64,000 bases of DNA from Chelatococcus composti (GTDB lineage: Bacteria; Pseudomonadota; Alphaproteobacteria; Rhizobiales; Beijerinckiaceae): the NCBI RefSeq assembly GCF_014201415.1, contig NZ_JACHEH010000003.1:310001-374000 (forward strand). The letters are read 5' to 3'. The position numbers were made by a program, and so were the translations under genes. Shown here in pieces: positions 37,401 to 51,513 of this stretch (positions within the stretch are counted from its first letter, which is position 1; every line of letters starts with the position of its first letter). The notes under the pieces are model-generated. The model worked only from the letters and a program-made list of their open reading frames with translations. It was not told the origin of the DNA and searched no databases.

Positions 37401-38780
37401 GGCATCGACGCCTCAGTGCGGGGCATCTCCGACGCGCCGATCCGCATCACCGGCTCGCTGCCGACGACGGCTGAGGGCAATCTCGACCTCGCCGTCGCCG
37501 GCCGCATCGACCTTGCCGTTGCGAACCGTCTCGCGGCGGCGGACGGGCAGCGCTATGGGGGCACGGCCACTGCGGACCTGCGCCTCGCCGGCACCTTCGC
37601 CGCGCCGCGGGCAGAGGGCACCGTGCGCCTCACGGGCGGCCGCTTCGAGGACGTCGTCAACGGCATCCTCCTGTCCGACATCGACGCGACCGTCACGGGC
37701 TCCGAGCGCGAGCTTGTCATCCAGAGCCTGGCGGCGCGGGCGCGCAACGGCGGCCGGATCACCGGCAGCGGGCGCATCGCGCTCGATCCGGCGGCGGGCT
37801 TTCCGGGCAGCATCAGCCTGCGGGCGGCGAATGCCCAGCTCGTGTCGAACGACACGACCAACGCCATCGTCGGCTTCGACCTTTCCGTCGCGGGCCCCAT
37901 GGCCACGGCGCCGCGCGTGACGGGGCGGGTGACGGTGGACAACCTGCAGATTTTCGTGCCCGACCGGTTGCCGCCCTCCGTGACGCCCATCGAGGTGCGG
38001 CACAAGAATGCGCCGCCGCGCGTCGCCGAGCGCGTCCGGGCGCAGGAGCGGCAGCAGCGCGCACGTGCGGCGGGCGGGGGCTTCGACGCGGCGCTCGACA
38101 TCACGGTCGATGCCTCGTCCGGGCGGGTCCTGGTGCGCGGACAGGGCATCAACGCCGAACTTGGCGGCACGCTCGCCATCCGCGGCACGTCGTCCAACCC
38201 GGTCATCGACGGCGGATTCTCCATGCGCCGCGGCACCTTCCAGGTGCTCGGCCGGCGCCTCACCTTCACGCGCGGCAACGTCACCTTCCCCGGCACGCTT
38301 GACCCGCAGATCGACTTCGTGGCCGAGGCTCCGGCCGGCGACGTGACGGCCCGCGTTGCCGTCGACGGCATCGCCTCAAGCCCGCAGATACGCTTCTCCT
38401 CCTCGCCCGAGCTGCCGCAGGACGAGGTCCTGGCGCGCCTGCTCTTCGGCAAGCCTTCGGGCAACCTGACGGCGGGGCAGGCGTTGCAGCTGGCGCAGGC
38501 AGTGGCACAGTTTGCCGGCGGCAATCGTGTGCTCGATGATCTCAGCCGCTCGCTCGGCGTTGATGCGGTCGACATCGACACCGATGCCAGCGGCAATGTG
38601 GCGGTCGGCGTCGGCAAGCGCATCAATGACAACATCTATCTCGGGGTGAAGCAGGGAGCGACACCCGACTCCAGCCGCGTGACGGTCGATATCGACATTA
38701 CCGACCACATCAAGGTGCAGGGTGAGGCCGGGGCCGACGGCTCCAGCGCCGTCGGCATCGGCATGGAATGGGATTATTGA
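34470..38780 (+). CDS. tamB: Translocation and assembly module TamB (DUF490)
   Basis: Very long (1436 residues) AsmA-like protein with one N-terminal transmembrane anchor (~10-32, ILLTVAGAVILLAVAAVLML) and a periplasmic beta-taco spanning to the outer membrane. It is built of repetitive beta-rich segments with many LSGxLDG/DLxLS-like units. The DUF490 C-terminal domain (from ~1150: FSMRRGTFQVLGRRLTFTRGNVTF; EVLARLLFGKPSGNLTAGQALQLAQAV) ends in GIGMEWDY. TGATG overlap with tamA shows translational coupling. Its last 7 bp overlap the convergent unknown gene. Confidence 0.94.
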   Translation: MHRSSKAGRVARAILLTVAGAVILLAVAAVLMLRTDVGRGQLVRLVETLASGPDMRLSIGRLDGALPFDMTVSDVSVADREGVWLTLDRAHLAWRPLSLLSGVVEVNVLEAGRVAVARPPVPGTGPATEGSGPPRLPFGVIVERLAVEEVALGEALVGEPVSLAVSGDARLVDPADGLSGEIAIRRTDGVAATVDGTLRFVPDTGQLVVDVRAVEPAGDIVSRLAGLPDLPPLDFSLRGDGPLDNWRGDLALTLGASARAQATATITRDADGRQLALDGTADIAALLPDRYAPLAAGEATLHLRAKRFDDGRIEVGELFAEGAGGRVTGTGTLDEARDAVSGRLTLSLPSAMPYAALAPVALSWRGLEATATVEGPLSRPRLALTATGDGLSIEQNAIGRAILGLRAEADGAPLQPDTRFAFDLTADLRDLAPQSSELAGVVGSEAHLTANGTATLDGADIAALRLDLAPLAATFSGTVSTEAVDGKVNVERADLAALRAFMDRPLAGVVALTGDVSASFDLSRLAVTLNGMARGLETGVAQADGLLGRDVRLSGGFRRNADGSFGFERFTVSGAHVGLIADGSATENRANVTAKLDLPDLSQLDARVTGRADVDATLTGSLDALDARLRLVIDGASALGRPVERLAADIEARDLTGAATGTLSLSGSVDGKPATGSGRFARDAAGAVRVSDLDIGLGSVRAQGAFDISPASLTSGRLVLRAGDLADIAPLLLTKLAGAVDLDLTLSSEDGRQNLVAKGRVSDFSGFDASLARADIDLSARDVLGRFAADGKVMLERLAVAGVDVPRAEISAEGTREATRLSLGGSVRGIDVAADARLAMRPDETVVTLDSASASRGGQRVTVARGAVFTLRDGTVAVSGLTLNANGGSLAVSGSAGEQLDLSATMRNLPLALAELAAPGLGLAGQLSGEAQITGSPSRPDGRYRLSVSGFTMPQIRDAGLAPLAVEANGTLADGRAGIDASVRGISDAPIRITGSLPTTAEGNLDLAVAGRIDLAVANRLAAADGQRYGGTATADLRLAGTFAAPRAEGTVRLTGGRFEDVVNGILLSDIDATVTGSERELVIQSLAARARNGGRITGSGRIALDPAAGFPGSISLRAANAQLVSNDTTNAIVGFDLSVAGPMATAPRVTGRVTVDNLQIFVPDRLPPSVTPIEVRHKNAPPRVAERVRAQERQQRARAAGGGFDAALDITVDASSGRVLVRGQGINAELGGTLAIRGTSSNPVIDGGFSMRRGTFQVLGRRLTFTRGNVTFPGTLDPQIDFVAEAPAGDVTARVAVDGIASSPQIRFSSSPELPQDEVLARLLFGKPSGNLTAGQALQLAQAVAQFAGGNRVLDDLSRSLGVDAVDIDTDASGNVAVGVGKRINDNIYLGVKQGATPDSSRVTVDIDITDHIKVQGEAGADGSSAVGIGMEWDY

Positions 38781-39775
38781 GCGAGCGGCGCGCTCGTGGC
38801 TTCCCGCGGAGGGGCGTCGCGCCTGTCCGGCAGCAGCGGCATGTCCGAGAAATTGCCGAAGATCATGTCCGGTGCGCTGGTGTTGTGACGCGACGGCATG
38901 ACCCGTCCGGTCCAGAGTTCCAGCGCCTCGGCGCCCGGAAAGGTCATGACCGGGGCTTCGCCCCAGCCCCTGGCGCCGGGCGTGCGCCAGGCGACGCGGG
39001 CGGTGTCGGCATTGGTCTCCATCACGTACATCGAGCGCAGCGCCGCGAAAGGCCTGTCCCGCGGCATGTCGCCTGAGAATGACACGTCGAGCACGATGTG
39101 CTCGTCATCGAGGGCGGCGAGCCTCACCTTGCCCTCGCCGCCGTCGGCGAAGGCGAGAGTGAAGGTCCGCGTTGCGGGATCGAAGACGACCTCCTTCAGC
39201 GCCACGATGGGGCGGCCCTCGTTCTTGACCGGGCCGACGAGAAAGGAGCTGCCGTAGGCTGTCCAGCGCGTGTCGCCGGGCGGTATCGGGCGGGCCCGCC
39301 AGTAGCCGTCCGGCGGATAGAGCACGAGCACCTCCTCGGCGCGCTCCCTGTGGCGCACCCACACCTGGATGAGGTGCAGGCCGTGCTCGACACGGTCGCC
39401 GACGCGCACCGGCACGTCGTTCGGCCGCCAGAAGGAGGGATAGGTATAGCCGACGAGCCACAGGTCCGGCGTCTCGTAGAAGGTGACGCGGCGCGGCTCG
39501 GCCACGTGCACGGGATCGCCCGACATGTCGCAGCTCGTCCAGTCCGCGGCCCAGCGGTCGGTGTCGAGCATGCCGAGATAGGCCGGGTGCACCGCCCGGA
39601 TGCGGAAGTGCCGCACCTGCGGGTTGGTGAAGGTAAGGCTGACGTTGTCCTTCTCCGCGCACAGCACGGGCTCGCTCTCGTTGTCGACGCGGGCCGCGAG
39701 TTCGGCTGCGCCGGCGGAGGGTGCGGCGGCGGCGAGCAGGCCGGCGACGAGCAGACCCCGGATGGTTCTCGACAT
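38774..39775 (-). CDS. Unknown secreted protein downstream of fkbM and mdoH
   Basis: It has 333 residues with a signal peptide (MSRTIRGLLVAGLLAAAAPSAGAAE). The mature part is rich in beta-strand-like segments, Trp and Tyr, for example VRHFRIRAVHPAYLGMLDTDRWAADWTSCDMSGDP and WLVGYTYPSFWRPNDVPVRVGDRVEHGLHLIQVWV. Two Cys (CAEKDN, SCDMSG) could pair. No domain is recognised. It starts 3 bp after fkbM and is the last gene of the mdoH-fkbM operon, which suggests a periplasmic role tied to glucans; that is inference. Confidence 0.75.
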   Translation of the reverse strand: MSRTIRGLLVAGLLAAAAPSAGAAELAARVDNESEPVLCAEKDNVSLTFTNPQVRHFRIRAVHPAYLGMLDTDRWAADWTSCDMSGDPVHVAEPRRVTFYETPDLWLVGYTYPSFWRPNDVPVRVGDRVEHGLHLIQVWVRHRERAEEVLVLYPPDGYWRARPIPPGDTRWTAYGSSFLVGPVKNEGRPIVALKEVVFDPATRTFTLAFADGGEGKVRLAALDDEHIVLDVSFSGDMPRDRPFAALRSMYVMETNADTARVAWRTPGARGWGEAPVMTFPGAEALELWTGRVMPSRHNTSAPDMIFGNFSDMPLLPDRRDAPPREATSAPLAQ

Positions 39776-39778
39776 GCG

Positions 39779-40576
39779 TTATCCTGTGAAGATGCTGTTC
39801 TGGGCCGCTCGGGGCCCCGTTGCGGCGAGTGTCGCATAAACGTCACCTGAATTCGCCCGAAGAGGCAATGTGGCCAGATGATCCCGCATCGCCTCGGCGC
39901 AGACGGGCTCGGGGAAGACGAGGCGCTGTTCCTCGCCGAGCGACAGGTTGAAGCGGTAGGGGCCGAGCGCGGCGAGCCGGTCGAGGCAGCGCATGGCGAC
40001 CTCGCGGGCGATGGTGGTGAACTCGAAGGACAGTGCGGGCAGCGGCTGCGACAGGCCGGCCAGCACGGCGTCCTCGAAGCCCTCGACATCAATCTTGGCG
40101 AAGGCGGGCATGCCATGGCGGGCGATGAGCACATCGAGCGTCGTCATCGCCACAGTCAGGGTGTGGTCCCAGTGCTGGTCGCGCCAGCCGTCGGCCTCGC
40201 GCGCGGCGGCGAGGAAAGTCCCGGAGGCGGAGGAGACGGTGGGGTTGGCGCTGTTGACGTGGAGCGTGACGTAGCCCTCCGCGGCTCCGACCGCCGCCTC
40301 GACCAGAGTCACGTTCCTGTCCCGGCCATGGATGAGACGCAGGAGGCGCATCGGGCCGGGCTGGGGCTCGACGGCGACGACGCGCGCGCCGAGGCGACGG
40401 AAGGAGGAGGTGCGGTCGCCGACATGGGCCCCGATGTCGAAGGCGAGATCACCCGCAGCGAGGAAGCGGCGGTAAAGGGCATCCATCGCGCGATGGCGGG
40501 CGCGATTGCCGTGATAGAGCAGGAGCGAACGGGCGAGCCCGCGCCATTCGGTGAGGGTGGCGCGGAGCCGGCTCAT
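39779..40576 (-). CDS. FkbM-family methyltransferase
   Basis: SAM-dependent methyltransferase of 265 residues. Motif I is LAFDIGAHVGDRTSSFRRLGARVVAVEPQPGPM; the FkbM core TLDVLIARHGMPAFAKIDVEGFEDAVLAGLS is complete. Family members O-methylate sugars or polyketides. The ATG overlaps the mdoH stop (ATGA), so it is translationally coupled to the glucan synthase. A periplasmic-glucan or precursor sugar is a plausible acceptor, but this is inference. Confidence 0.87.
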   Translation of the reverse strand: MSRLRATLTEWRGLARSLLLYHGNRARHRAMDALYRRFLAAGDLAFDIGAHVGDRTSSFRRLGARVVAVEPQPGPMRLLRLIHGRDRNVTLVEAAVGAAEGYVTLHVNSANPTVSSASGTFLAAAREADGWRDQHWDHTLTVAMTTLDVLIARHGMPAFAKIDVEGFEDAVLAGLSQPLPALSFEFTTIAREVAMRCLDRLAALGPYRFNLSLGEEQRLVFPEPVCAEAMRDHLATLPLRANSGDVYATLAATGPRAAQNSIFTG

Positions 40577-42402
40577 GCGGCGACGGCCACGGGCGGCGGC
40601 GCCGGGCGGGCGAGGGCGGCGATCTCGGCTGGTTCGTCGAACTCCTCAGGGACGGCGCAGAGCCGGTGTCGCGCGAGGAAGGCGCCGAAGGCCGGTCGCG
40701 CCGTCACGACGGCGAAGGGGATGGCGAGCAGGTAACCGGCCGTGAGTGGCAGGCTCCACAGGAGCGCCGCCGGCGAGATCCACGCCAGCGCGCCACAGAC
40801 GACGAGGCCGAACACGGTCTGCGGCCACAGCCCGGCCGCCGCCGTCACCCAGGACAGGGCATGCGCGTCCCGCTCCTGGCCGTTCCAGCCCACATGCGCG
40901 CGCCCGGCGAGGAGGCCGGCCATGAACAGGCTGGTGCGGAAGGAGGACACAGCCCCCTGCAGGAAGGAGAAGACGATCTCGAGGCAGGCCGAGAGGCCGA
41001 AGCGCATCGCCCCGCCGTAGCGGGCAACCTCGCCGCGCCTCAGCGCGATGTCGGCGAGCCCGGCGAGCTTGGGGAAGAGGCACAGGAAGAGGAACGTGCC
41101 GTAGAGGGCAGTGGCGGCGGTCGTGGGGAAGGCGTCGGCCAACTGCGCCTCGCGCACGGCGAGCGGCGACAGCGCGACCATCGCCGTCATGGCCGGCAGC
41201 CCGGCGAACATCAGGGTGGCCCACAGGAGCTGGATGCGGCTGACGGGATGCAGGCCGGGCAGGGCGAGGAGCCGGATGTACTGCATGTTGCCGAGGCACC
41301 AGCGCAGGTCGCGGCGCACGAAGTCCACCACCGTCGGCGGGTTTTCCTCCCAGCTGCCGACCTCGACCGGCAGGACGCGCACCTCATAGCCGGCGCGGCG
41401 CATGAGGGTGGCCTCCAGCTGGTCGTGCGACAGGATGGCGCCGCTGAGCGGGCCGCGGCCGGAAAGGACGGGCAGGCGGCATCCGTCACGATAGGGCGCG
41501 ATGCGGACGAGCGCGTTGTGACCCCAGAAGGGGCCGCAGTCGCCGGTCCACCAGGCACTGCCCATGGTGTAGGCCCGCATGCCGTGCCGCATGCCGAACT
41601 GGAAGATGCGGGCGAAGCCGCTCGCGGCCGGCAGGCCGGTGACGAGGCTCTGCAGGATGCCGAGGCGGGGATGGGCCTGCATCATGCGCACCATGGCGAG
41701 GATGGTCTCCCCCGCCATCAGGCTGTCTGCGTCGAGCGGCAGCATCAGCTCGTAGTCGTTGCCCCAGCGGGCGCAGAAGTCGCGCAGGTTGCCGGCCTTG
41801 TAGCCGACATTGTCCTCGCGCCGGCGGTAGACGGCCCTGGCACCGTCTGCCAGCGAGGCGCGGAAGGCGGCGAAGGCCTCCTCCTCCGCGACCGCGATCT
41901 CGGGCAGCGAGGTATCGCTCAGGACGAAATAGCCGAAGTGGTGGCCTTGTCCGGTGCGGGCGATGCTTCCGGCGACGGCCGCGAGGCGTGCGAAGGCGCG
42001 CGCCGGGTCTTCGTTGCGCAGCGTCATCAGTACGGCGGTGCGCAGGAAGACCGGTTCGCCCGACGTGCCGGCGCCGGCGAAGGGGGCAACCTCGGCAAGC
42101 CCGTCACGGCGTCCGTGCAGCAGCCACAGGCCAATCGCGGCATTCCAGAACCCGAGGACCACCCACGGCGTTACGAGAAAAAAGCAGGTGAGGAGGATGC
42201 CGTCGAGAAGGCTCCACCCGCCGGCCGAGAGGATCCACGCCATGGCCGCGCCGAGGAGGGCCCACGTGACGACGTTGAGCACCGCGACCAGCGCCCGCCG
42301 CCACGCCAGCGCGGCGGTGGACTGCATTCCGCCCGGTGTCTTAGATGGGGAGGACGAACCCTCGACGAGCGTGAGGGTCGCAGGATCGAGCCATTCCGTC
42401 AT
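40573..42402 (-). CDS. mdoH: Glucans biosynthesis glucosyltransferase MdoH (OpgH)
   Basis: Inner-membrane glycosyltransferase family 2 enzyme that polymerises the beta-1,2-glucan backbone of osmoregulated periplasmic glucans from UDP-glucose. It has 609 residues, shorter than E. coli OpgH (847) because the N-terminal region is reduced, as in other alphaproteobacterial forms. Two helices precede the catalytic domain (MLPLDADSLM; GNLRDF; SHDQLEATLMRRAGYEVRVLPVEVGSWEENPPT), and RRDLRWCLGNMQ is the (Q/R)xxRW motif. At least six helices follow. No opgG/mdoG partner lies next to it. It heads an operon with fkbM and a secreted unknown. Confidence 0.9.
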   Translation of the reverse strand: MTEWLDPATLTLVEGSSSPSKTPGGMQSTAALAWRRALVAVLNVVTWALLGAAMAWILSAGGWSLLDGILLTCFFLVTPWVVLGFWNAAIGLWLLHGRRDGLAEVAPFAGAGTSGEPVFLRTAVLMTLRNEDPARAFARLAAVAGSIARTGQGHHFGYFVLSDTSLPEIAVAEEEAFAAFRASLADGARAVYRRREDNVGYKAGNLRDFCARWGNDYELMLPLDADSLMAGETILAMVRMMQAHPRLGILQSLVTGLPAASGFARIFQFGMRHGMRAYTMGSAWWTGDCGPFWGHNALVRIAPYRDGCRLPVLSGRGPLSGAILSHDQLEATLMRRAGYEVRVLPVEVGSWEENPPTVVDFVRRDLRWCLGNMQYIRLLALPGLHPVSRIQLLWATLMFAGLPAMTAMVALSPLAVREAQLADAFPTTAATALYGTFLFLCLFPKLAGLADIALRRGEVARYGGAMRFGLSACLEIVFSFLQGAVSSFRTSLFMAGLLAGRAHVGWNGQERDAHALSWVTAAAGLWPQTVFGLVVCGALAWISPAALLWSLPLTAGYLLAIPFAVVTARPAFGAFLARHRLCAVPEEFDEPAEIAALARPAPPPVAVAA

Positions 42403-42458
42403 CGGGCACCGTCCTCTGCCGTGCCGCGGCGATATAGGGCAGAACGAAGGGAAGCGCG

Positions 42459-43457
42459 ATGGGCATTAGCGCAAGCAACGGCGAAGGTTCCGGCATTTTC
42501 GCACTGTGGTACGTGGCGCGGCGCCACGCCGAGCTGCGACCCGTCGCGCCCGTCGTGCCCGGGGCGGGCGAGGTGATGGTCCGTACCCTCTTCAGCGGCA
42601 TCAGCCGCGGCACGGAGCGCCTCGTCTTCAACGGCCTGTGCCGGCCTCGGCACAACCGGCGCATGTGCGCGCCCATGCAGGAGGGGACCTTTCCCTTTCC
42701 CGTGAAGTATGGCTATTGCGCTGTCGGCGTCGTGGAGGCCGGGGCGGCTGACCTCGTCGGCCGCACGGTCTTTGCACTCCATCCCCACCAGCAGCTGTTC
42801 ACGGCACCCGCCGTCGCCGTCGCCGTGGTGCCCGAGGCTGTGCCCGCGCGCCGTGCGGTTCTCGCCGCCAACATGGAGACGGCGCTGAACGGCGTGTGGG
42901 ATGCAGGCGCCGGGCCGGGCGACCGGATCGTGGTGGTGGGCGCAGGCGTCGTCGGGCTTCTGGTCACGTTCCTGTGTGCGGGCCTGCCTGGCGCGGAGGT
43001 GACGGTGGTCGACACCGATCCCGCGCGGGCCGAGGTGGCGCGGCGCCTTGGCGCCAGCTTCGCCCTGCCGGGGCGGGCGCGCGGCGAGGCCGACGTCGTC
43101 ATCCACGCCAGCGGCACGCCCGCCGGCCTTGCCACGGCTCTGGAGCTGTGCGGCGACGAGGCGACGCTCGTCGAGATGAGCTGGTATGGAGACGAGGCGG
43201 TGTCGGTCCATCTCGGCGGCGAGTTCCACGCCCGCCGCCTGAGGCTCGTCTCCTCCCAGGTGGGGCAGGTGGCGGCCTCGCGCCGGCCGCGCTGGGAGCC
43301 GGCTCGACGCCTCGCCAAGGCGCTCGCGCTGCTGGCTGACCCGCGGCTCGACGATCTCATTACCGGCGAGGTTGCCTTCGCCGATCTGCCCGCGGCGCTG
43401 CCGGCCATCCTCGATGAGGGGGCGCAGGGGCTGATGACCGCGGTGCGCTATCAATGA
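42459..43457 (+). CDS. Medium-chain dehydrogenase/reductase (zinc-site degenerate)
   Basis: It has 332 residues, MDR fold. ATG 42459 has AAGGGAAG upstream. The Rossmann motif is IVVVGAGVVGLLVTFLCAGLPGAEVTVVDTD. In place of the usual C-G-x-C-G-T-D catalytic-zinc motif it has SGISRGTERLVFNG, the form seen in BchC-like and other non-classical MDR proteins, so classical alcohol-dehydrogenase chemistry is doubtful. It heads a tight plus-strand cluster with a PTPS-like protein, glycosyltransferase and methyltransferase. Probably a reductase or dehydrogenase acting on the cluster product. Confidence 0.85.
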   Translation: MGISASNGEGSGIFALWYVARRHAELRPVAPVVPGAGEVMVRTLFSGISRGTERLVFNGLCRPRHNRRMCAPMQEGTFPFPVKYGYCAVGVVEAGAADLVGRTVFALHPHQQLFTAPAVAVAVVPEAVPARRAVLAANMETALNGVWDAGAGPGDRIVVVGAGVVGLLVTFLCAGLPGAEVTVVDTDPARAEVARRLGASFALPGRARGEADVVIHASGTPAGLATALELCGDEATLVEMSWYGDEAVSVHLGGEFHARRLRLVSSQVGQVAASRRPRWEPARRLAKALALLADPRLDDLITGEVAFADLPAALPAILDEGAQGLMTAVRYQ

Positions 43458-43481
43458 GCGGCGCGATTGAGGGAGAGGGCC

Positions 43482-43889
43482 ATGTATGCCGTCGAGGTGC
43501 GTGACCACGTCATGATTGCCCACAGTTTCCGCGGAGACCTGTTCGGGCCGGCGCAGGCCCTGCATGGGGCGACCTTCATCGTCGATGTGGCTTTTTTCCG
43601 GTCGGAGCTGATGGCCGAGGGCGTGGTGGTCGACATTGGACGCGCCACGGAGGCGTTGAAGGCGGTGCTCGCGCCCCTCAACTACCGCAACCTCGACGAG
43701 CTGCCGCAGTTCGCCGGGCGCAACACGACAACGGAGTTCCTGAGCCGCCACATCTTCGACGCGATGGCCGAGGCGGCGCGCAGCGGTGCGCTGGGCCCGG
43801 GCGGCGAGGGCATCGATCACATCCGCGTGACGCTGCACGAGAGCCATGTGGCACGGGCGTGGTTCGAGGGAGCCGTCGCCTGTGCCTGA
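43482..43889 (+). CDS. 6-pyruvoyl-tetrahydropterin synthase-like protein lacking the usual active site
   Basis: It has 135 residues from ATG 43482 (GAGGGAGAGG upstream). The T-fold is recognisable: MIAHSF (His14), ALHGATFIVDVAFF (His28), VVVDIGRATEALKAVLAPLNYRNLDEL, NTTTEFLSRHIFDAM and HIRVTLHESHVARAWF (Glu120). Compared with PTPS/QueD, the catalytic Cys before LHGH is Ala24, the third zinc His (HGH) is Ala30, and the Asp-His pair in LDHHYLN is replaced by Asn67-Tyr68. So normal PTPS, sepiapterin or QueD lyase chemistry seems impossible, while fold and substrate pocket remain. The gene overlaps the glycosyltransferase gene by 8 bp. Confidence 0.82.
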   Translation: MYAVEVRDHVMIAHSFRGDLFGPAQALHGATFIVDVAFFRSELMAEGVVVDIGRATEALKAVLAPLNYRNLDELPQFAGRNTTTEFLSRHIFDAMAEAARSGALGPGGEGIDHIRVTLHESHVARAWFEGAVACA

Positions 43890-44943
43890 TGTCGTCTTCG
43901 CCATACCGGGCGACCTCGCCAGCCCGACGGGCGGTTACGCCTATGCGCGACGCATGCTCGCCGACCTGCCGGGGCAGGGCGTCGATGTCGTCTACCGGCC
44001 GCTGCCCGGCGCCTTCCCCTTTCCCTCCGAGGCGGATGTTGCTGCGACCGCCGCGGCCCTCGCGGCAACGCCCCCCGATGCGGTGCTGCTGATCGACGGG
44101 CTTGCCTGCGGGGTCCTGCCTCCCGCGCTGCTGCGCGACTGCGGCAGGCGGTGCGTGGCCCTGGTGCACCATCCGCTCGGGCACGAGACGGGGCTCGCGG
44201 AAGCGGACAGCCAGCGGCTGCTCGCCAGCGAGAAGGCGGCGCTCGCGGCGGTGGATGCCGTCATCACATCAAGCGTGCCGACGGGGCGGGTGCTGGTGAG
44301 CGAGTTTGGCGTCGCGCCCGGACGGCTGACGGTGGCGGAGCCCGGCACCGATCCGGCCCCGCGTGCCCCGGCCCGGGGCGAGCCGCCGCATCTCGTCTCG
44401 GTCGGGTCCGTCTCGCCGCGCAAGGGCTATGACGTGCTTGTCACGGCGCTGGCGAAGCTCGTGGTCCTGCCGTGGCGCGCCACCATTGTCGGCAGCCTCG
44501 AGCGGATGCCGGACGAAGCGGCGCGGCTGCGGGCGGCGATCGCAGAGGCCGGCCTCGGCGAGCGCATCGCGCTTGCGGGCACCTGCGAGGACGCGGTTCT
44601 GGAGCGTCTCTACGCCTCGGCCGACGTCTTTGTAATGGCCTCGCGCTACGAGGGCTACGGCATGGCGCTGACGGAGGCGCTGGCGCGTGGCCTGCCGATC
44701 GTGACGACCCGTGTCGGCGCGGCGGACGAGCGCGTGCCCGACGCCGCAGGGCTCAAGGTGCCGCCGGGCGACGCCGACGCCCTCTGCGATGCACTGGCGA
44801 CGGTGCTTGGAGACCGCGAAAGACGCCTTGCCATGGCCGAGGCGTCCTGGCGTGCGGGGCAGGCCCTGCCGCGCTGGGTGGACACTGCGGCGGTCATCGC
44901 CGGTGTCGTCCGCTCCCTCGCAGGCCGGGAGAAGGGTGCATGA
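43882..44943 (+). CDS. Family 4 glycosyltransferase
   Basis: GT-B-fold glycosyltransferase of 353 residues starting at GTG 43882 inside the PTPS-like gene. The N-terminal domain opens with a glycine-rich loop (AIPGDLASPTGGYAYARRMLADL); the C-terminal nucleotide-sugar domain has VSVGSVSPRKGYDVLVTAL and the GT4 signature SRYEGYGMALTEALARGLPIVTT with its catalytic Glu. GT4 enzymes transfer sugar from a nucleotide sugar with retention. Coupling to a pterin-type protein points to glycosylation of a small molecule rather than a polysaccharide, as inference. Confidence 0.88.
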   Translation: MPDVVFAIPGDLASPTGGYAYARRMLADLPGQGVDVVYRPLPGAFPFPSEADVAATAAALAATPPDAVLLIDGLACGVLPPALLRDCGRRCVALVHHPLGHETGLAEADSQRLLASEKAALAAVDAVITSSVPTGRVLVSEFGVAPGRLTVAEPGTDPAPRAPARGEPPHLVSVGSVSPRKGYDVLVTALAKLVVLPWRATIVGSLERMPDEAARLRAAIAEAGLGERIALAGTCEDAVLERLYASADVFVMASRYEGYGMALTEALARGLPIVTTRVGAADERVPDAAGLKVPPGDADALCDALATVLGDRERRLAMAEASWRAGQALPRWVDTAAVIAGVVRSLAGREKGA

Positions 44944-45890
44944 GCGGCTTTTCCGCCGACTGGCTTGCGCTGCGCGAGCCGGCCGATCATGCCGCCCGCA
45001 GCCGTGCGCTTCTCGACAGGGCTGCGGCGGCGGTCGCGGGCCGGCAGCCCGTGCATGTCCTCGACCTTGGATGCGGGACCGGCTCCAACCTGCGGGCGAT
45101 GGCGGTGCATCTCGGGGGCAACCAGCACTGGCAGCTCGTCGACCACGATCCGCTCCTGCTCGCGAAGGCGCGGGCGGAGCTCCGGCGCTGGGCGGATGCC
45201 GTCCTGCGAGATGGGGAAGACATGCTGGAGCTGTCGTTTTCCGGACGGCGCATCGCGATTTCGTTCATCGCGTTCGAGCTTTCCGGCGGGGTCGGGCCGC
45301 TCCTTGTGGAGCCCGTCGATCTGGTCACGGCAGCCGCGCTTTTCGATCTCGCATCGCCGGCGTGGATCACGGCCTTCGTGCGCACGGTCGCGGCGGCGGG
45401 GCTGCCATTCTACACGGCGCTGACCTTCGACGGCCGTTATGACTGGGAGCCGTCCCACCCGGACGACGCGGCGGTGCGCCGGGCCTTTCTCGCCCATCAG
45501 CGGCAGGACAAGGGCTTTGGCCCTGCGGCCGGGCCGGACGCGACGGCGCTGCTCGCGGCCGGCTTCCGCGCGGCGGGCTATGCCGTCTCCGAGGAGCAGA
45601 GCCCGTGGCGGCTGACCGGCCGGGAACGGGCGCTGATTGCAAGTCTCGCCGATGGGACGGCCGCCGCGGCGGGCGAGACGGGGCAACTGTCCGACGAGCG
45701 GCTGGCCGCCTGGCGCGCGGCGCGCCGACTTGCCGAGAGCTGCCTCATTGGCCACGCCGATCTTCTCGCCCTGCCATCGGCGGGTCAGTGCGGCGGGTGG
45801 GCAGCATCCGCGCCAGCACGCCGTCACGGCGCACGAAGCCGTGCCAGAGGCCGGCGCCGATGTGCAGCGCCGCCAGCGCCGCGAGCGTGA
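44940..45890 (+). CDS. SAM-dependent methyltransferase with run-on C-terminus
   Basis: Class I methyltransferase; the ATG overlaps the glycosyltransferase stop (ATGA). Motif I is VLDLGCGTGSNLRAMAVHL near residue 38. The conserved core seems to end near HADLLALP (~residue 277). The frame then continues ~40 residues in Arg/Ala-rich, low-complexity sequence (APARRHGARSRARGRRRC) to a stop at 45888-45890, antisense to the cytochrome b561 gene. The tail has the composition of non-coding frame, so an ancestral stop codon near 45780 was probably lost. The overlap with the convergent gene is 146 bp. Confidence 0.82.
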   Translation: MSGFSADWLALREPADHAARSRALLDRAAAAVAGRQPVHVLDLGCGTGSNLRAMAVHLGGNQHWQLVDHDPLLLAKARAELRRWADAVLRDGEDMLELSFSGRRIAISFIAFELSGGVGPLLVEPVDLVTAAALFDLASPAWITAFVRTVAAAGLPFYTALTFDGRYDWEPSHPDDAAVRRAFLAHQRQDKGFGPAAGPDATALLAAGFRAAGYAVSEEQSPWRLTGRERALIASLADGTAAAAGETGQLSDERLAAWRAARRLAESCLIGHADLLALPSAGQCGGWAASAPARRHGARSRARGRRRCAAPPAPRA

Positions 45891-46320
45891 AGGCGGCGAG
45901 CTTGTGCAGACTGAGCAGCAGGGCCGACAGAGCCTCATCCTTGGGCAGGATCGGCGGCAGCACGAAGAGGCCGAAGACGGTGATCTGCGCGCCGAAGGCC
46001 GAGGTTCCGGCCCAGCCGAGCAGCGGCACGAGGACGATGAGCACGTAGAGCGCCCGGTGCACCGTGAGCGATAGTGCGCGCAGCAGCGGGCCGAGCGCCG
46101 GATGGGGCGCCGGCGCCCCCTTCAGCAGGCGCACGGCAAGGCGCACCGCCGCCAGGGCGAGGACGAGCGCACCGAAGGAGCGATGCAGGTCGTAGAGACT
46201 GTTCTGCGTGGGGCCCGGCGCCGCGTTGACCATGGCGATGCCGAGCGGGATTGTCGTCAGAATGGCGAGGGCGGTGAGCCAGTGCAGCCACTTAGCTGCC
46301 GGGCGGTAGCCCTCGTACAT
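45745..46320 (-). CDS. Cytochrome b561-family membrane protein
   Basis: Four-helix di-heme membrane protein of 191 residues, starting at ATG 46320 (MYEGYRPAAKWLHWLTALAIL); a GTG 5 codons upstream (46335) is an alternative. The N-terminal KWLHW, DLHRSFGALVL, VHRALYVLIVLVPLLGW and SLHKLAAFTLAALAALHIGAGLWHGF carry the His ligands expected for two b hemes. Bacterial b561 proteins move electrons between quinol and other acceptors, including superoxide. Its start lies within 30 bp of the stop of the upstream reductase gene, so they form an operon. Confidence 0.88.
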   Translation of the reverse strand: MYEGYRPAAKWLHWLTALAILTTIPLGIAMVNAAPGPTQNSLYDLHRSFGALVLALAAVRLAVRLLKGAPAPHPALGPLLRALSLTVHRALYVLIVLVPLLGWAGTSAFGAQITVFGLFVLPPILPKDEALSALLLSLHKLAAFTLAALAALHIGAGLWHGFVRRDGVLARMLPTRRTDPPMAGREDRRGQ

Positions 46321-47092
46321 CGGTCTCGGGGACACAGCATGCCTCCCCGTTGCAGCGCCTCAGATCACAGTCGAACAGAACGTCCCCGTCGGCAAGCACG
46401 TAGATGTCGGTCTGCGGCCGGATCGCCTCGCTCAGCGGGCCGATGGGCGAGAGTTCGAGCCCGGCCCGGCCCGAGCCGATGATGATGGGCGCAACGAGGA
46501 GGTGCAGCCGGTCGATGCAGCCGGCATCGAGGAAGGCGGAGATGGTGCGCGCCCCACCTTCGATGAGCAGCCGGCACAGCCCGCGGGCGGCCAGGGCGGC
46601 GACGATGGCGTGTGGATCGAGCCGGCCCGCGGCGGATGGCAGGACGATCTCCTCGACGCCGGCCGGACACGGGCCGGAGACAGAGCGGATCACGAGGCGC
46701 CGCGCGTCCGGGCTCGTCATGCAGCGGGCGTCCGGCGGCAGGCGCCCGCGCGGGTCGAGGACGACGCGGGCGGGGTTGCGGCCGGGGACGCGCCGGACGG
46801 TGAGCTGCGGATCGTCAGCGACGACCGTGCCGACGCCGACGACCACGGCATCGACGGCCGCCCGCAGGCGGTGCAGATGGTCGAGTGCCGCGGCGCGGTT
46901 GATATATCGGGAGTCGCCCGTTGCCGTCGCGATGCGCCCGTCGAGCGACTGGCCGAGCTGTGCGACGACGAAGCTGCGGCCCTCCGGCACATCCGCTATG
47001 CGTTGGAGCGCGCGATGTGATAAGCAGTCCATCGGCGCGGAACGCCCGTCCATCTCGTCGGGTGTGGTCACAGGGCCCTCTTGCTGCTGCAT
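46292..47092 (-). CDS. RibD C-terminal-type (DHFR-fold) reductase
   Basis: It has 266 residues from ATG 47092; Met14 or Met21 could be the true start. It is the stand-alone reductase domain of riboflavin synthesis, without the deaminase half: FVVAQLGQSLDGRIATATGDSRYINRAAALDHLHRLRAAVDAVVVGVGTVVADDPQLTVR, and LLIEGGARTISAFLDAGCIDRLHLLVAPIIIGSG. In the standard pathway this domain reduces the ribosylamino side chain with NADPH. It diverges from a ribA gene and is coupled to a cytochrome b561 gene, so a specialised pathway is more likely than housekeeping riboflavin synthesis. Confidence 0.86.
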   Translation of the reverse strand: MQQQEGPVTTPDEMDGRSAPMDCLSHRALQRIADVPEGRSFVVAQLGQSLDGRIATATGDSRYINRAAALDHLHRLRAAVDAVVVGVGTVVADDPQLTVRRVPGRNPARVVLDPRGRLPPDARCMTSPDARRLVIRSVSGPCPAGVEEIVLPSAAGRLDPHAIVAALAARGLCRLLIEGGARTISAFLDAGCIDRLHLLVAPIIIGSGRAGLELSPIGPLSEAIRPQTDIYVLADGDVLFDCDLRRCNGEACCVPETDVRGLPPGS

Positions 47093-47299
47093 GCTGTCCC
47101 GCCGGAGGGAGTGTCCTCGTTCGTCGAAGGCATGTCCCGTTCATACATCGGCAACGGCTGGGCCGCCATGGCACGGCCGGCTATGCAGGAGACCGGGACC
47201 GTCAGGCGACAGGTAGAGCCTTGCCGGATCTTATTTCGATGCACATGTGTTGTCTGTTTTGCGGTACGTGAAAACCGGCAGGCTTCACGGCCAGGAGCG

Positions 47300-48433
47300 A
47301 TGGCCCACGAGAGTTCACCGTCGATGAGTTCAGATTTCATCCAGGATCGCGGCCAGATCAGCGTCGAGAGGGCGCTGGCGGAGTTCCGCGCGGGGCGCCC
47401 CGTCCGCATCACCGGCGACGGCGTCTCGCTGCTGGCCGTGGGGATCGAGGGCCTTAACGAGGATCTTGCGAAGGCTCTGGAACGCAAGGCCGCCGACCGA
47501 GCCCGGCTGGTGTTGCCCAGGGCGCGCCTGCGCCGCCTGGGCGCCGAGCGCGGGAGCGCCGGCATCATTGCCCTGCCGGAAATCGACCTGAAGCGCGTGA
47601 CGCACCTGTCGCTCGCGCCCGATGCCCGGCTCGATGCGCCCGTGGGCTGCCTGCAGCCGCTCGACGAGGCCGCGCTCGAGCTTGCGCGCCTGTCGCTCGT
47701 CCTGCCGGCGGTCGTCACGGTGTCGGTGTCGCCCGACGATCCGGCGCTCGCCGACGTGGTGGCCGTGCGTGAGGCGGACGTCCTCGCCTACCGGCAGAGC
47801 CAAGTGCGCGCGCTGCGCATTGTCGGGCGCGCGCCGGTGCCGCTTGAGGGCGCGGGCGAGACGGAGTTCGTGGTCTTCCGCGGCGGTGAGGGCCTGCGCG
47901 ACCAGGTGGCCATCATCGTCGGCCGGCCGGACCTCTCACGCACCGTTCCCGTGCGCCTGCATTCGGCCTGCCTCACCGGCGACCTCTTCGGCAGCCTCAA
48001 GTGCGACTGCGGCGACCAGCTGCGCAGCACCGTGCAGTGGATGGCGGGGAACGGCGGCGGCATCCTGCTCTATCTGGACCAGGAAGGGCGTGGCAACGGC
48101 ATCGCCAACAAGATGCGCGCCTACAAGCTGCAGGCGCAGGGCTTCGACACCTACGACGCCGACGAGATCCTTGGCTTCGGGCTCGACCAGCGACGGTTCG
48201 ATTTCGCTGCCGAGATGCTGCGCCAGCTGGGTGTCACCAGCGTCAGCATCATGACCAACAACCCGGAGAAGATCGCGGCGCTGAAGGCGGCGGGCCTTGC
48301 CGTCGTCGCCGAGCAGCGCGTCATTGGCCGGCCGACGAGCGAGAACATCCGCTATCTGGCGGCCAAGCGCGAGCGCGCAGGGCACTTCATCGACATCGAC
48401 AGCCTCTCCGCGCATCTGCCGTCGCGGGACTGA
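47300..48433 (+). CDS. ribA: GTP cyclohydrolase II with a degenerate RibB-like N-terminus
   Basis: Hydrolyses GTP to formate, pyrophosphate and 2,5-diamino-6-ribosylamino-pyrimidinone phosphate. It has 377 residues from ATG 47300; 47324 is an alternative and the ribosome site is unclear. The C-terminal half is complete: zinc Cys224, Cys235 and Cys237 in HSACLTGDLFGSLKCDCGDQL, then YLDQEGRGNGIANKMRAY and MTNNPEKIAAL. The N-terminal ~170 residues begin like DHBP synthase (VERALAEFRAGRPVRITGD) but lack the acidic D-D-E-D-R-E-N catalytic stretch, so no RibB activity is expected. Confidence 0.9.
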   Translation: MAHESSPSMSSDFIQDRGQISVERALAEFRAGRPVRITGDGVSLLAVGIEGLNEDLAKALERKAADRARLVLPRARLRRLGAERGSAGIIALPEIDLKRVTHLSLAPDARLDAPVGCLQPLDEAALELARLSLVLPAVVTVSVSPDDPALADVVAVREADVLAYRQSQVRALRIVGRAPVPLEGAGETEFVVFRGGEGLRDQVAIIVGRPDLSRTVPVRLHSACLTGDLFGSLKCDCGDQLRSTVQWMAGNGGGILLYLDQEGRGNGIANKMRAYKLQAQGFDTYDADEILGFGLDQRRFDFAAEMLRQLGVTSVSIMTNNPEKIAALKAAGLAVVAEQRVIGRPTSENIRYLAAKRERAGHFIDIDSLSAHLPSRD

Positions 48434-48509
48434 CGGCGCGGCAGGCCATCGACGCGCCTGCGTCCTTGGCCTATAGCGGAGGCCCTGCGACGATTCCCAG
48501 AGGCCCTCG

Positions 48510-49205
48510 ATGAAGACATTGTTCGCCCTGCCGCCCGTGCCCGTGATCCCCGTGGTGGGCCAGGAGGCCGGCTTCCCCGTGCGCCGCGTGTTCTGCGTGG
48601 GGCGCAACTACGCGGAGCATGCCCGCGAGATGGGGCGCGACCCGGACCGCGAGCCGCCCTTCTTCTTCACCAAATGGGCCGAGACGGTGGTGCCGGGCGG
48701 CGGCGAGATCGCCTATCCGCGGCAGACGAAGAACTATCATTACGAGCTGGAGCTGGTGGTCGCGATCGACGGGTCGGGGCAGGACCTCGACGAGGAGGCC
48801 GCTGCCAAGCTGGTCTTCGGCTATGCCGTTGGCCTCGACATGACGCGGCGCGACCTGCAGGCGGCGGCGAAGGAGCTGGCCCGTCCGTGGGACTTCGCCA
48901 AGAATGTCGAGCAGTCGGCGCCGATCGGCGCCATCACGCCGGCAGCAACAATGGGCCCCTTCACGAAGGCCGCGATGGAGCTCAAGGTCAACGGCCAGAC
49001 ACGCCAGCGCGGCGACATCGCCGACATGATCTGGCCGGTGGCGCCCATGCTCTCCATCCTTTCGCGCTTCTACCGGCTGGAGCCCGGCGACCTCGTCATG
49101 ACGGGCACCCCGGCAGGTGTCGGGGCCGTCGTACCGGGCGACGTCATCGAGGGGACCATTGAGGGCCTCACCCCGCTGACGGTGACGATCGCGCCCTTGC
49201 GCTGA
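48510..49205 (+). CDS. Fumarylacetoacetate hydrolase-family protein
   Basis: It has 231 residues, FAH fold. [16 protein letters not shown] starts the domain; the metal site comprises Glu in PFFFTKW...[11 protein letters not shown] and Asp in [35 protein letters not shown] ends it. It most resembles the fumarylpyruvate hydrolase/acylpyruvase branch (MTRRDLQ, KEFxRPWDFAK-like region). It hydrolyses C-C bonds of acylpyruvates or decarboxylates oxaloacetate; the exact substrate is unknown. It lies 77 bp after ribA and 231 bp before a Liv transporter set. Confidence 0.87.
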
Positions 49206-49436
49206 TACGCGCAGCGATGCAGCAGAAGGCTCGCCGGCGGTCGAAAGGGCAGCCGGCGAAGACTGCGTTGGCGCCGGCGGCATTGCCCTGCGGCCTTCGG
49301 GGTGCTCTTTAGGGGGCATCCGGTCGCACGCACATGCGATGTCGGTCAGGCGCACTGACCGGTCCCTTGCAAAAGCGTCGTCCGCGATTAGTGTCGTGAC
49401 GGCTCGCAAGAGGCTGTACAAAGCAGGGGGAACGCC

Positions 49437-50351
49437 GTGGGCTATTTTGTGGACCAGCTCATCAACGGGCTCACCCTCGGCTCCGTTTATGGCCTCATCG
49501 CCATCGGCTACACGATGGTCTACGGCATCATCGGCATGATTAACTTCGCCCACGGCGAAGTCTTCATGATCGGTGCCTTCATTTCCCTCATCGTGCTGCT
49601 GCTGCTGGCGCAGCTCGGTGTGGCCTCGGTGCCGCTGGCCATCCTGGTGGCGCTCGTGCTCACGGCGGTCTTTACCGCCCTGTGGGGGTTCGTCGTGGAG
49701 CGAATCGCCTACCGGCCACTGCGCGGCTCGTTCCGCCTCGCGCCGCTCATCTCGGCCATCGGCATGTCGATCTTCCTGCAAAACCTGGTGCAGTTGCTGC
49801 AGGGCGCGCGGGTTAAGCCGCTGCCGCCGGTGCTGACGGGGCGCATTCCCCTCGGTTCCATCGGCGACCATCAGATTTCGGTGGCGATGGTGCAGGTCGT
49901 GATCGTGGTTGTCACGGTGGTGCTGATGGCCGGCTTCAGCCTGCTCGTGTCGCGCACCGCGCTCGGTCGCGCCCAGCGCGCCTGCGAGCAGGACCGGCGC
50001 ATGGCCGAGCTCGTCGGCGTCAACGTGGACCGCACGATCTCGCTGACCTTCGTCTTCGGGGCCGCGCTCGCTGCCGTCGCCGGGCTGCTCTACACGATCT
50101 ATTACGGCTCGATCGACTTCTTCATCGGCTTTTTCGCCGGCCTCAAGGCCTTCACGGCCGCCGTGCTCGGCGGCATCGGCTCGTTGCCCGGCGCCATGCT
50201 CGGCGGGCTGCTCATCGGCCTCATCGAGGCGCTGTGGTCGGCCTATTCCGACATCCAGTACAAGGACGTGGCGGTGTTCGCCATCCTCGTCCTCATCCTC
50301 CTCTTCCGGCCGACGGGACTGCTCGGCCGGCAGGAGGTGGAGAAGGTTTGA
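49437..50351 (+). CDS. livH: Liv-type ABC transporter permease LivH, second set
   Basis: It has 304 residues starting at GTG 49437 with AGGGGG upstream. Typical LivH N-terminus LINGLTLGSVYGLIAIGYTMVYGIIGMINFAHGEVFMIGAF, and RACEQDRRMAELVGVNVDRTISLTFVFGAALAAVAGLLY. It is closer to the E. coli/Pseudomonas LivH type than the copy at 25.0 kb. It is first in the unusual order livH-livK-livM. Confidence 0.92.
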   Translation: MGYFVDQLINGLTLGSVYGLIAIGYTMVYGIIGMINFAHGEVFMIGAFISLIVLLLLAQLGVASVPLAILVALVLTAVFTALWGFVVERIAYRPLRGSFRLAPLISAIGMSIFLQNLVQLLQGARVKPLPPVLTGRIPLGSIGDHQISVAMVQVVIVVVTVVLMAGFSLLVSRTALGRAQRACEQDRRMAELVGVNVDRTISLTFVFGAALAAVAGLLYTIYYGSIDFFIGFFAGLKAFTAAVLGGIGSLPGAMLGGLLIGLIEALWSAYSDIQYKDVAVFAILVLILLFRPTGLLGRQEVEKV

Positions 50352-50409
50352 GCGCAAGACATGCGCACCGCCGGCGCTGCCGGGCGGGGGCGGTCAAGGG
50401 AGGAAGACC

Positions 50410-51513
50410 ATGAATGCGATGACGAAACTGATGCTGTCGGCCTGCGCTGCGGCGCTTCTGGCAGCCTCGCCGGCCCGGGCGGACGTGACCTTCGCCCTCG
50501 GCATTCCCGCCACCGGCGGCCAGATCGCCGCCATCGGCGCCCAGGCGCGCCTCGGCGCCGAGGCCGCGGTGAAAGCCATCAACGACAAGGGCGGCATCAA
50601 GGGCGAGAAGCTGGTGCTCGAGATCGCCGACGACCAGTGCGACCCCAAGAGCGCGGTGAGCGCCGCCAACCAGGTGGTGTCGAAGGGCATCCGCTTCGTC
50701 GTCGGCCACCTGTGCTCCGGCGCCTCGATCGCGGCTTCCGGCGTCTATGACGAGGAGGGCATCCTGATGATGACCGCCTCGGCGACCGCGCCGGAGCTGA
50801 CCGACCGCGGCATGAAGCTGGTCTTCCGGGCCTGCGGGCGCGACGACCAGCAGGGCGTCGTCGCTGCCAAGTTCATTGCCGACAAGTTCAAGGGCAAGAA
50901 GGTCGCCATCGTCCACGACAAGCAGGTCTACGGCCAGGGTCTCGCCGAGGCGGCCAAGAAGACGCTTGCCGAGGCGGGCGTCACGCCGGCCTACGAAGGT
51001 TCTGTCAACGCCGGCGAGCGTGACTTCTCGGCCCTCGTCGCCCGCCTGAAGCAGGAGGGTATCGATATCGTCTATTACGGCGGTTATCACACGGAGCTCG
51101 GCCTCATCGTGCGGCAGGCGCGCCAGGCCGGCCTCGAGACGCGCTTCGTCGGTGCCGACGGCCTCGCCACCAATGAGTTCTGGTCCATCGCCGGCGAGGG
51201 CGGAGCCGGTACGCTTTTCACCTTCAGTGCCGACGTGAAGGCCAAGCCCTCGGCCAAGGACGTCTACGAGGAGCTGAAGAAGAGCGGCGAGCCGGACAAC
51301 TTCGCCTTCTACTACTATGCCGCGGTGCAGGCGCTGGCCGATGCCGTGGCGCGCGCTGGCAAGGAGCCCGAGGCGGTGGCCGAAGACCTGCGTAAGAACA
51401 GCTTCGAGACGGTGGTCGGCTCCTTCCGCTTCGACGCCAAGGGCGACTTGATCGACCCCGAATACGTCATCTTCGAGTGGCGTGACGGCGCCTATGCGCC
51501 GACGAAACTCTGA
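50410..51513 (+). CDS. livK: Liv-type periplasmic amino-acid binding protein, second set
   Basis: It has 367 residues; signal peptide MNAMTKLMLSACAAALLAASPARAD. Classical LivJ/LivK features: LGAEAAVKAINDKGGIKGEKLVLEIADDQCDPKSAVSAANQVVSKGIRFVVGHLCSG (first Cys pair region) and ATAPELTDRGMKLVFRACGRDDQQG. Its closeness to leucine/isoleucine/valine binding proteins is much stronger than for the 23.7-kb gene, so amino acids are a likely ligand. A strong hairpin follows. Confidence 0.92.
   Translation: MNAMTKLMLSACAAALLAASPARADVTFALGIPATGGQIAAIGAQARLGAEAAVKAINDKGGIKGEKLVLEIADDQCDPKSAVSAANQVVSKGIRFVVGHLCSGASIAASGVYDEEGILMMTASATAPELTDRGMKLVFRACGRDDQQGVVAAKFIADKFKGKKVAIVHDKQVYGQGLAEAAKKTLAEAGVTPAYEGSVNAGERDFSALVARLKQEGIDIVYYGGYHTELGLIVRQARQAGLETRFVGADGLATNEFWSIAGEGGAGTLFTFSADVKAKPSAKDVYEELKKSGEPDNFAFYYYAAVQALADAVARAGKEPEAVAEDLRKNSFETVVGSFRFDAKGDLIDPEYVIFEWRDGAYAPTKL

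Follow-up and report, generated by a model that had tools for sequence, protein, structure and literature searches.

A widespread gene cluster around a PTPS-IV protein that probably turns GTP into a tailored, pterin-like molecule

Background

The PTPS-IV proteins of COG0720, in the sense in which the name is used in PMC5445326 and PMC5041015, form an orphan family; a structure has been solved (PDB 3d7j, SCO6650), and no role is established in the portions of those papers considered here. In 2017 the families PF00925, there read as FolE2, and PF01872 were described in the neighbourhood of a cluster of 561 PTPS-IV sequences (PMC5445326). In this article we describe a PTPS-IV gene cluster at positions 38774-48433 of a 64,000-nucleotide stretch of Chelatococcus composti DNA (RefSeq assembly GCF_014201415.1, contig NZ_JACHEH010000003.1, positions 310,001 to 374,000), which we refer to as a whole as the window. 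The cluster consists of about ten genes and probably turns GTP into a pterin-like molecule with sugars and methyl groups at the envelope. An earlier sequence-only reading of the window had proposed a new pterin or pyrimidine natural-product cluster; the system is only partly new, PTPS-IV beside PF00925 and PF01872 being already present in PMC5445326 and the structure 3d7j being available. No description of this gene set was found in the open-access literature searched, a scope outside which most subscription journals fall.

SCO6650, a Streptomyces coelicolor protein, reportedly showed neither PTPS activity nor zinc in the hands of the authors of the 3d7j structure. The product of SCO6655, a gene near SCO6650, is reportedly a GTP cyclohydrolase II giving a formylated product. 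SCO6655 is named in PMC2853524. SCO6650 was not found named in the open-access literature searched.

Biopterin-type pterin glycosides are made via GTP cyclohydrolase I, and the mycofactocin system includes MftE, a creatininase-family protein. Mycofactocin itself bears an oligoglucose chain that contains 2-O-methylglucose (PMC7491314). GTP cyclohydrolase I is the source of most biological pterins, and how pterins cross the membrane is unknown (PMC13259868); consequently, a pterin derived through GTP cyclohydrolase II and tailored for the envelope would be new.

Results and discussion

A dedicated gene set inherited largely as a unit

The MDR dehydrogenase, the PTPS-IV protein, a GT4-family glycosyltransferase and a methyltransferase (MT), together with the upstream enzymes (a RibD-C-type reductase and the GTP cyclohydrolase II RibA) and a membrane module, constitute a dedicated gene set that is largely inherited as a unit. 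We consider it somewhat more probable than not that positions 38774-48433 represent one copy of a biosynthetic cluster that is widespread, uncharacterised in function and centred on the orphan PTPS-IV, and that follows a route from GTP to an envelope-finished pterin.

Gene content, conservation, co-occurrence, residue changes and end-module interchange were computed from genome sequences. One sample comprised 142 genomes drawn evenly from the class of the window. A second collection comprised 94 loci, that is, the window, 13 class loci and 80 loci scanned from named species genomes; the latter are the best 80 of at least 584 relatives among at least 596 stretches matched in those genomes, and they were found partly via a pattern (His14, His28 and FGPAQ), which does not apply to the 13 class loci. 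Genes were counted within 9.5 kb of the PTPS gene; since the flanking sequence falls short of 8.5 kb on one or both sides in 30 of the 94 loci, the locus counts are lower bounds. Loci L022 and L098 probably represent the same organism, and L098 was left out of the tree and kept among the 94 loci.

A protein search found PTPS-IV in 14 of the 142 class genomes, each from a different family; leaving the window's own copy aside, identities were 46-65%. The cluster MT was found by profile search in 13 of the 142, all of them among these 14; the PTPS-IV genome with no MT match (G053) is 87% complete and has its PTPS gene at a contig end. The profile of the cluster reductase matched 13 genomes at 249-337 bits, the next matches, at 172 bits or less, being ordinary RibD (matches to E 1e-40). 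Twelve of these 13 genomes carry PTPS-IV; in two of them, G028 and G035, the reductase gene is not close to PTPS or sits on a different contig. The thirteenth (G127, 74% complete) has the reductase next to a CDP-alcohol phosphotransferase from the family found in the cluster. Fisher tests over the 142 genomes gave p 1.6e-17 for PTPS with MT and p 1.3e-14 for PTPS with the reductase, and these associations rule out a chance neighbourhood.

Among 398 genomes of the phylum there were 27 clear PTPS-IV matches; 3 further genomes, matching at just 59 bits and probably representing other PTPS types, were not counted. Judged by record title, the genes co-occur far outside close relatives, in six bacterial classes or phyla, as the sequence-only reading had led one to expect: the scanned loci come from Alpha-, Beta- and Gammaproteobacteria, from Lentzea and Pseudonocardia (Actinomycetota), and from metagenome-assembled genomes labelled Acidobacteria and Gemmatimonadota (labels as given). 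The order MDR-PTPS-GT4-MT on one strand is found in 66 of the 94 loci. All four genes are present in another arrangement in 8 loci, six of which (with titles of the Beta type) have MT beyond the MdoH-like gene, and one or more of the four was not found in 20 loci, many of them cut short. Counted per 94 loci, the families are MDR 87, GT4 90, MT 84, MdoH-like 59, RibD-C 58, RibA 41, cytochrome b561 36, FkbM 27, hyp333 20, CDP-alcohol phosphotransferase 15, LtaS-like 12, creatininase family 9, LPG-synthase-TM 7 and YceI 5.

Layout of the cluster in the window

The genes of the cluster are as follows (window coordinates, strand, description).

38774..39775, minus: hyp333, a secreted-looking protein of 333 aa whose N-terminus has a hydrophobic stretch by eye; final gene of the minus arm; homologues in 20/94 loci
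39779..40576, minus: FkbM-family methyltransferase; PF05050 50.8 bits, TIGR01444 83.4 bits (over cut-off); 27/94 loci
40573..42402, minus: MdoH-like membrane GT2 glycosyltransferase, divergent from MDR; NF003963 917 bits (cut-off 884); 59/94 loci
42459..43457, plus: MDR dehydrogenase, distantly BchC-like; PF00107 35.5 bits, TIGR01202 BchC 5e-12 (far below cut-off); 87/94 loci
43482..43889, plus: PTPS-IV protein with FGPAQ, and HGA replacing HGH; PF01242 74 bits, PDB 3d7j SCO6650 E 4.9e-47
43882..44943, plus: GT4-family glycosyltransferase, GTG start at 43882 set from homologues; PF00534 105 bits; 90/94 loci
44940..45890, plus: class I S-adenosylmethionine (SAM) methyltransferase, MT; PF13649 33 bits; homologous part to ~45770 by alignment; 84/94 loci
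45745..46335, minus: cytochrome b561; PF01292 97.8 bits; 36/94 loci
46292..47092, minus: stand-alone RibD-C-type reductase without deaminase domain; PF01872 144.5 bits; Gln at the RibG Lys151 position
47300..48433, plus: GTP cyclohydrolase II RibA; NF006456 522 bits (cut-off 464); three zinc Cys and Tyr105 (E. coli numbering)

All genes named by the sequence-only reading were found where it had placed them, and the plus-strand unit of MDR, PTPS, GT4 and MT that it had described shows coding overlaps at its last two joints, where the GTG start of GT4 sits inside the 3' end of the PTPS gene and the MT start overlaps GT4 as ATGA. On the minus strand, b561 overlaps the end of the reductase gene. 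The MdoH-like GT2, the FkbM methyltransferase and hyp333 (38774-42402, minus), which that reading had not seen, are part of the cluster; these three genes overlap or nearly overlap, and the GT2 gene begins 56 bases upstream of MDR in the opposite direction. The RibA start at 47300 is the most likely one because the stretch upstream of it is not frame-conserved in comparison with Chelatococcus. A scan of 42300-48600 for promoters and terminators gave nothing above shuffles, no zinc-ligand motif was seen by eye in the MDR protein, and no radical SAM family was found among the ten window proteins scanned, a mycofactocin precursor peptide not having been searched for.

The MT frame extends about 40 codons beyond its homologues at 45745-45890 of the window (plus strand), into the end of the opposite-strand b561 gene, and MT in Chelatococcus (L038) stops after a 7-base overlap with b561. 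The long tail in the window reflects either a lost stop codon or a sequencing error.

The PTPS-IV protein and the nature of the product

We assign the window PTPS to subfamily PTPS-IV because of its FGPAQ motif, following the usage of PMC5445326. Its best PDB relative is 3d7j SCO6650 (E 4.9e-47), with true PTPS and QueD at E 0.009 or weaker, and SCO6650 carries the FGPAQ and HGA stretches as well (printed alignment). Across the family, F-G-P-A of the signature is kept in 94/94 members and Q in 93/94. The first two zinc histidines (His14 and His28) are kept in 94/94, these being part of the scan pattern for 80 of the members, and the third is replaced by Ala (HGA, not HGH) in 94/94 at a position outside that pattern, which bears out the altered active site proposed from the sequence alone. 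Glu85 and Glu120, also outside the scan patterns, are invariant (94/94). In PTPS proteins these His residues bind zinc and the two Glu residues belong to the pterin pocket. The catalytic Cys and His are absent in 14 sequences aligned with E. coli QueD. The window PTPS scores 34.6 bits against a cut-off of 89.25 with the QueD model TIGR03367. A QueD function or a role in tetrahydrobiopterin (BH4) synthesis (PTPS-I, II, with a CxxxHGH or CxxxxxHGH motif) was therefore rejected on the basis of HGA in 94/94 members, the missing motif Cys and the sub-threshold QueD score.

The product would be either a pterin or an open pyrimidine. In the latter case the cluster would make an uncyclised, glycosylated and methylated diaminopyrimidine or another pyrimidine nucleoside-like compound, which PTPS-IV would only bind or carry. 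The family does lack the third zinc ligand (94/94) and the catalytic residues, and hence any known PTPS chemistry, and the identified upstream enzymes stop at a diaminopyrimidine. However, two Glu residues that we take to line the pterin pocket are invariant, free diaminopyrimidines are presumably chemically labile, and the position of MDR beside PTPS suggests that the side chain may be oxidised before ring closure. We regard an open pyrimidine as unlikely.

The reductase, RibA and riboflavin supply

The sequence-only reading had described a deaminase-less reductase, and a dedicated enzyme of this kind agrees with the data: PF01872 is the only domain found, and none of the 58 cluster copies has the RibD lysine. 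At the position of B. subtilis RibG Lys151 the window reductase has Gln, and the 58 cluster reductases have 48 Gln, 7 His, 1 Leu, 1 Ser and 1 gap. Among the 28 RibD-C copies of 14 PTPS-IV genomes, 26 were readable: 13 have Lys (ordinary RibD), 11 are of the cluster type without Lys and 2 are neither. The best PDB relatives are stand-alone enzymes, namely 6p8c, labelled diaminopyrimidine reductase, and 2azn; in printed alignments the same position is Asn in 6p8c, 2azn and 5xv2 and Lys in the bifunctional RibD 3zpc. The stand-alone reductases 2azn and 5xv2 are archaeal. Archaeal-type diaminopyrimidine reductases carry an amide residue in place of Lys there and act on the 2-amino substrate; the window reductase, with its Gln, scores 108.9 bits with TIGR01508, below the cut-off of 186.45. 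The absence of the RibD lysine (0/58) points to a 2-amino substrate, and the residue pattern thus points to a cluster product of the 2-amino, pterin type and not of the uracil type.

A complete RibD is present elsewhere in the genome, beside RibE and RibH, as the sequence-only reading had suggested should be checked. Its companion expectation, a complete RibBA elsewhere, failed: the sole RibBA of the genome (L035 4294-5595, C4) has a GTP cyclohydrolase II domain without the zinc cysteines. A third gene resembling GTP cyclohydrolase II (L036 4596-5966, C2) is of the GTP_CH_N type and keeps the three Cys. With RibBA lacking the zinc Cys and the other copy being a GTP_CH_N protein, the genome has no canonical RibA-type enzyme besides the cluster RibA.

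This last point favours an explanation in which RibA and the reductase form a second riboflavin branch and the cluster serves to make or alter a flavin or lumazine, such as a secreted or glycosylated riboflavin derivative. Modular riboflavin branches and a creatininase-family formamidase are reported in PMC9478397, and creatininase-family genes occur in 9/94 loci. Nevertheless, the ten window proteins scanned include no deaminase, RibB, RibH or RibE, an intact housekeeping RibD-RibE-RibH set is present elsewhere, the reductase has Gln where RibD conserves Lys, and MDR, PTPS-IV, GT4 and MT have no known riboflavin role. There is no Rfam match, hence no FMN riboswitch, in 38000-50500; a riboswitch-controlled riboflavin operon was rejected on this ground and for want of RibB, RibH and RibE in the unit. 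We consider a flavin product distinctly improbable.

A canonical RibA lies within 6 kb of the PTPS gene in 5 of the 14 PTPS-IV genomes (G000, G015, G033, G060 and G131, with a second copy elsewhere in G015) and only elsewhere in G028, G035, G053, G107 and G135, where the PTPS contigs of G035 and G053 are short. Thirteen of the 14 genomes have one copy of the GTP cyclohydrolase II family without zinc cysteines (L035, L126-L128, L132-L138, L141-L143), the G064 copy being unreadable. The first riboflavin step in G095, G096 and G128 is unexplained, no canonical RibA having been found there. The motif of the GTP_CH_N protein (L036) is also seen in copies of G095 and G128; proteins combining GTP_CH_N with a GTP cyclohydrolase II-like part may belong to pyrimidine catabolism, and possibly they are the missing GTP-opening enzyme.

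Among 41 RibA rows, the Tyr105 position holds Tyr in 36, His in 2 and Leu in 1; one further row is degenerate without zinc Cys and one is cut off. The prediction that loci with a creatininase-family gene would have a RibA without Tyr105 failed in part: both His-type enzymes (L107 and L115) fit, and five Tyr-type RibAs (L077, L082, L091, L109 and L113) also have such a gene in the locus. His at Tyr105 is found in the actinomycete cluster RibAs L107 9274-10014 and L115 13940-14590, each with a creatininase-family gene in the locus, a combination that would be consistent with a formylated product on which a separate deformylase must act (compare PMC9478397).

Interchangeable end modules

The membrane end of the cluster exists in two forms. 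Of the 64 loci in which the PTPS gene is flanked by more than 8.5 kb on each side, 40 have only the MdoH-like gene, 16 have only the CDP-alcohol phosphotransferase and/or the LtaS-like gene, none has both and 8 have neither. On a tree of MDR, PTPS and GT4 (77 rows, quick search) the MdoH label changes 5 times and the CDP label 7 times, and well-supported branches force at least 4 changes of each label, from which it follows that the end modules replaced each other repeatedly. They may thus be two solutions for completing a single product at the membrane. PTPS and the MdoH-like gene are on opposite strands in 58 of the 59 loci that have the latter.

The MdoH-like gene also raises the question of whether the unit is a locus for modification of osmoregulated periplasmic glucans or exopolysaccharide in which the GTP-derived part is incidental. 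The protein scores above the cut-off of the OpgH model, and FkbM, GT4 and CDP-alcohol phosphotransferase are typical envelope genes. For comparison of MdoH and Opg types, 14 PTPS-IV genomes were used (the window's own, G060 and 12 relatives from the phylum set). A cluster-type MdoH-like copy is present in 11 of them at 734-942 bits (in G517 on a different contig from PTPS), and OpgH-type copies form a second class at 412-477 bits in 9 of the 14. Four carriers of the cluster-type gene (G151, G425, G181 and G060) have no OpgG match, there is no OpgG in the cluster unit, and the window's own genome has a separate OpgH-type gene beside OpgG on another contig. A role of the MdoH-like protein as the OpgH of periplasmic glucans (OpgGH) was rejected on account of these four carriers and the separate OpgGH pair. 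Moreover, the MDR-PTPS-GT4-MT core persists where MdoH is absent, and we judge the glucan or exopolysaccharide explanation very unlikely. That PTPS-IV serves coenzyme F420 is scarcely credible: an unpublished link is mentioned in PMC5041015 and the Fo synthase subunit CofH (TIGR03551) is over its cut-off in 3 of 14 PTPS-IV genomes, but it has no match at E 0.001 in the other 11, the window's own genome included, and F420 was accordingly rejected as a general role.

Homologues of hyp333 occur in 20/94 loci, all 20 with the MdoH-like gene. No Pfam family was above cut-off in the window protein (with weak matches, E 0.001 or worse, among the 20 members), and no PDB relative was found. Two cysteines, Cys39 and Cys82, are invariant in the family, as are many charged residues. 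The LtaS-like membrane family (L092 4416-6176, L113 16448-18187 and 10 further loci) has a sulfatase/LtaS look by eye only; scans of two members against Pfam and of L092 against the PDB gave no match. The loci that carry it, which range from Alphaproteobacteria to Lentzea and Gemmatimonadota, all lack the MdoH-like gene.

A proposed pathway and the evidence against it

For the envelope-finished pterin route we infer the substrates, the order of steps, the cyclisation, the envelope location and the redox role. RibA would open GTP to 2,5-diamino-6-ribosylamino-4(3H)-pyrimidinone 5'-phosphate, and the stand-alone RibD-C reductase, presumably tuned to the non-deaminated 2-amino substrate, would convert the ribosyl into a ribityl chain. 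The MDR dehydrogenase may then oxidise a secondary alcohol of the side chain, putatively to a 2'-ketone, after which PTPS-IV, having kept its pterin-binding Glu residues without the zinc/Cys/His catalytic set, could guide closure or rearrangement to a pterin-type bicycle; joining of the 2'-ketone to the 5-amino group would yield a core resembling dihydroneopterin with no need for GTP cyclohydrolase I. GT4 would add a sugar and MT a methyl group. The membrane module would finish the molecule at the envelope, here through the MdoH-like GT2 (with FkbM), which may add a glycan tail, and in other lineages through the CDP-alcohol phosphotransferase with the membrane LtaS-like protein, which may add a phospho-alcohol tail. 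Cytochrome b561 (with YceI in a few loci) might link a redox-active product to the respiratory membrane. A bolder version is that the cluster makes an unknown envelope redox cofactor, a GTP cyclohydrolase II-derived pterin bearing one of two interchangeable tails (an MdoH-made methylated oligosaccharide, or a phospho-alcohol or lipid) and coupled by b561 to respiration; this is possible, but on the doubtful side.

Several observations weigh against the proposed route. GTP cyclohydrolase I makes dihydroneopterin in one step, which renders a second route odd, and another pteridine or an open pyrimidine may be what the cluster really makes. RibA (41/94) and the reductase (58/94) are not always near the other cluster genes; two PTPS-IV genomes, G064 (68% complete) and G096 (93%), have no cluster-type reductase; and 9 of the 14 PTPS-IV genomes have no canonical RibA near PTPS, four of these (G064, G095, G096 and G128) having none that was found, with G064, 68% complete, carrying an unreadable 118-bit copy. 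The cluster RibA may also serve riboflavin. The significance of the reductase residue depends on RibG Lys151 being, as we assume, the reader of the pyrimidine 2-position. The cluster-type MdoH-like gene is absent from G330 and G346, which have the OpgH type only, and from G394, which has neither type. The b561 partner noted in the sequence-only reading is frequent, not universal, and its presence in just 36/94 loci makes the redox link weak; the light-related role suggested there found no support in the analysis. No metabolite, enzyme assay or mutant for the gene set was found in the open-access literature searched.

Comparison with known systems

The cluster belongs to the same subfamily as SCO6650, PTPS-IV of COG0720, and has in common with it the neighbourhood of GTP cyclohydrolase II (PF00925) and RibD-C (PF01872) described in PMC5445326. 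In the sections compared, the prior descriptions (PMC5445326, PMC5041015) do not include the MdoH-like, GT4, MT, MDR and FkbM genes or the end modules. With the full gene set, the dedicated reductase and the two interchangeable end modules, PTPS-IV becomes a testable pathway.

The riboflavin pathway shares its first two enzyme families (RibA and RibD) with the cluster, in which the zinc Cys and Tyr of RibA are intact. It differs in that the cluster has no deaminase, RibB, RibH or RibE and its reductase has an altered substrate residue.

Pterin glycosides of cyanobacteria and Chlorobium (cyanopterin, pteridine glycosyltransferase; PMC13259868, PMC5683033) represent the type of product expected here, a glycosylated pterin. 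They are of the biopterin type, whereas here there are a neighbouring GTP cyclohydrolase II and two glycosyltransferases. If the proposed route is correct, bacteria would possess a second pterin route as well as envelope pterins of a new, glycosylated or lipid-linked class, which would bear on how pterins reach the periplasm, an open question in PMC13259868.

The nearest working analogy is mycofactocin, a small redox cofactor with a sugar chain and a methyl group (PMC7491314). A creatininase-family member is a further likeness, creatininase-family genes being present in 9/94 of our loci. Mycofactocin is a ribosomal peptide product that involves a radical SAM enzyme, and nothing of that kind was seen among the ten window proteins scanned; genes and chemistry differ, and the analogy is one of working and not of membership. 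If the cofactor version is correct, roughly a tenth of the class genomes (14/142) and several other phyla would make an envelope cofactor that works like mycofactocin yet is chemically unrelated to it.

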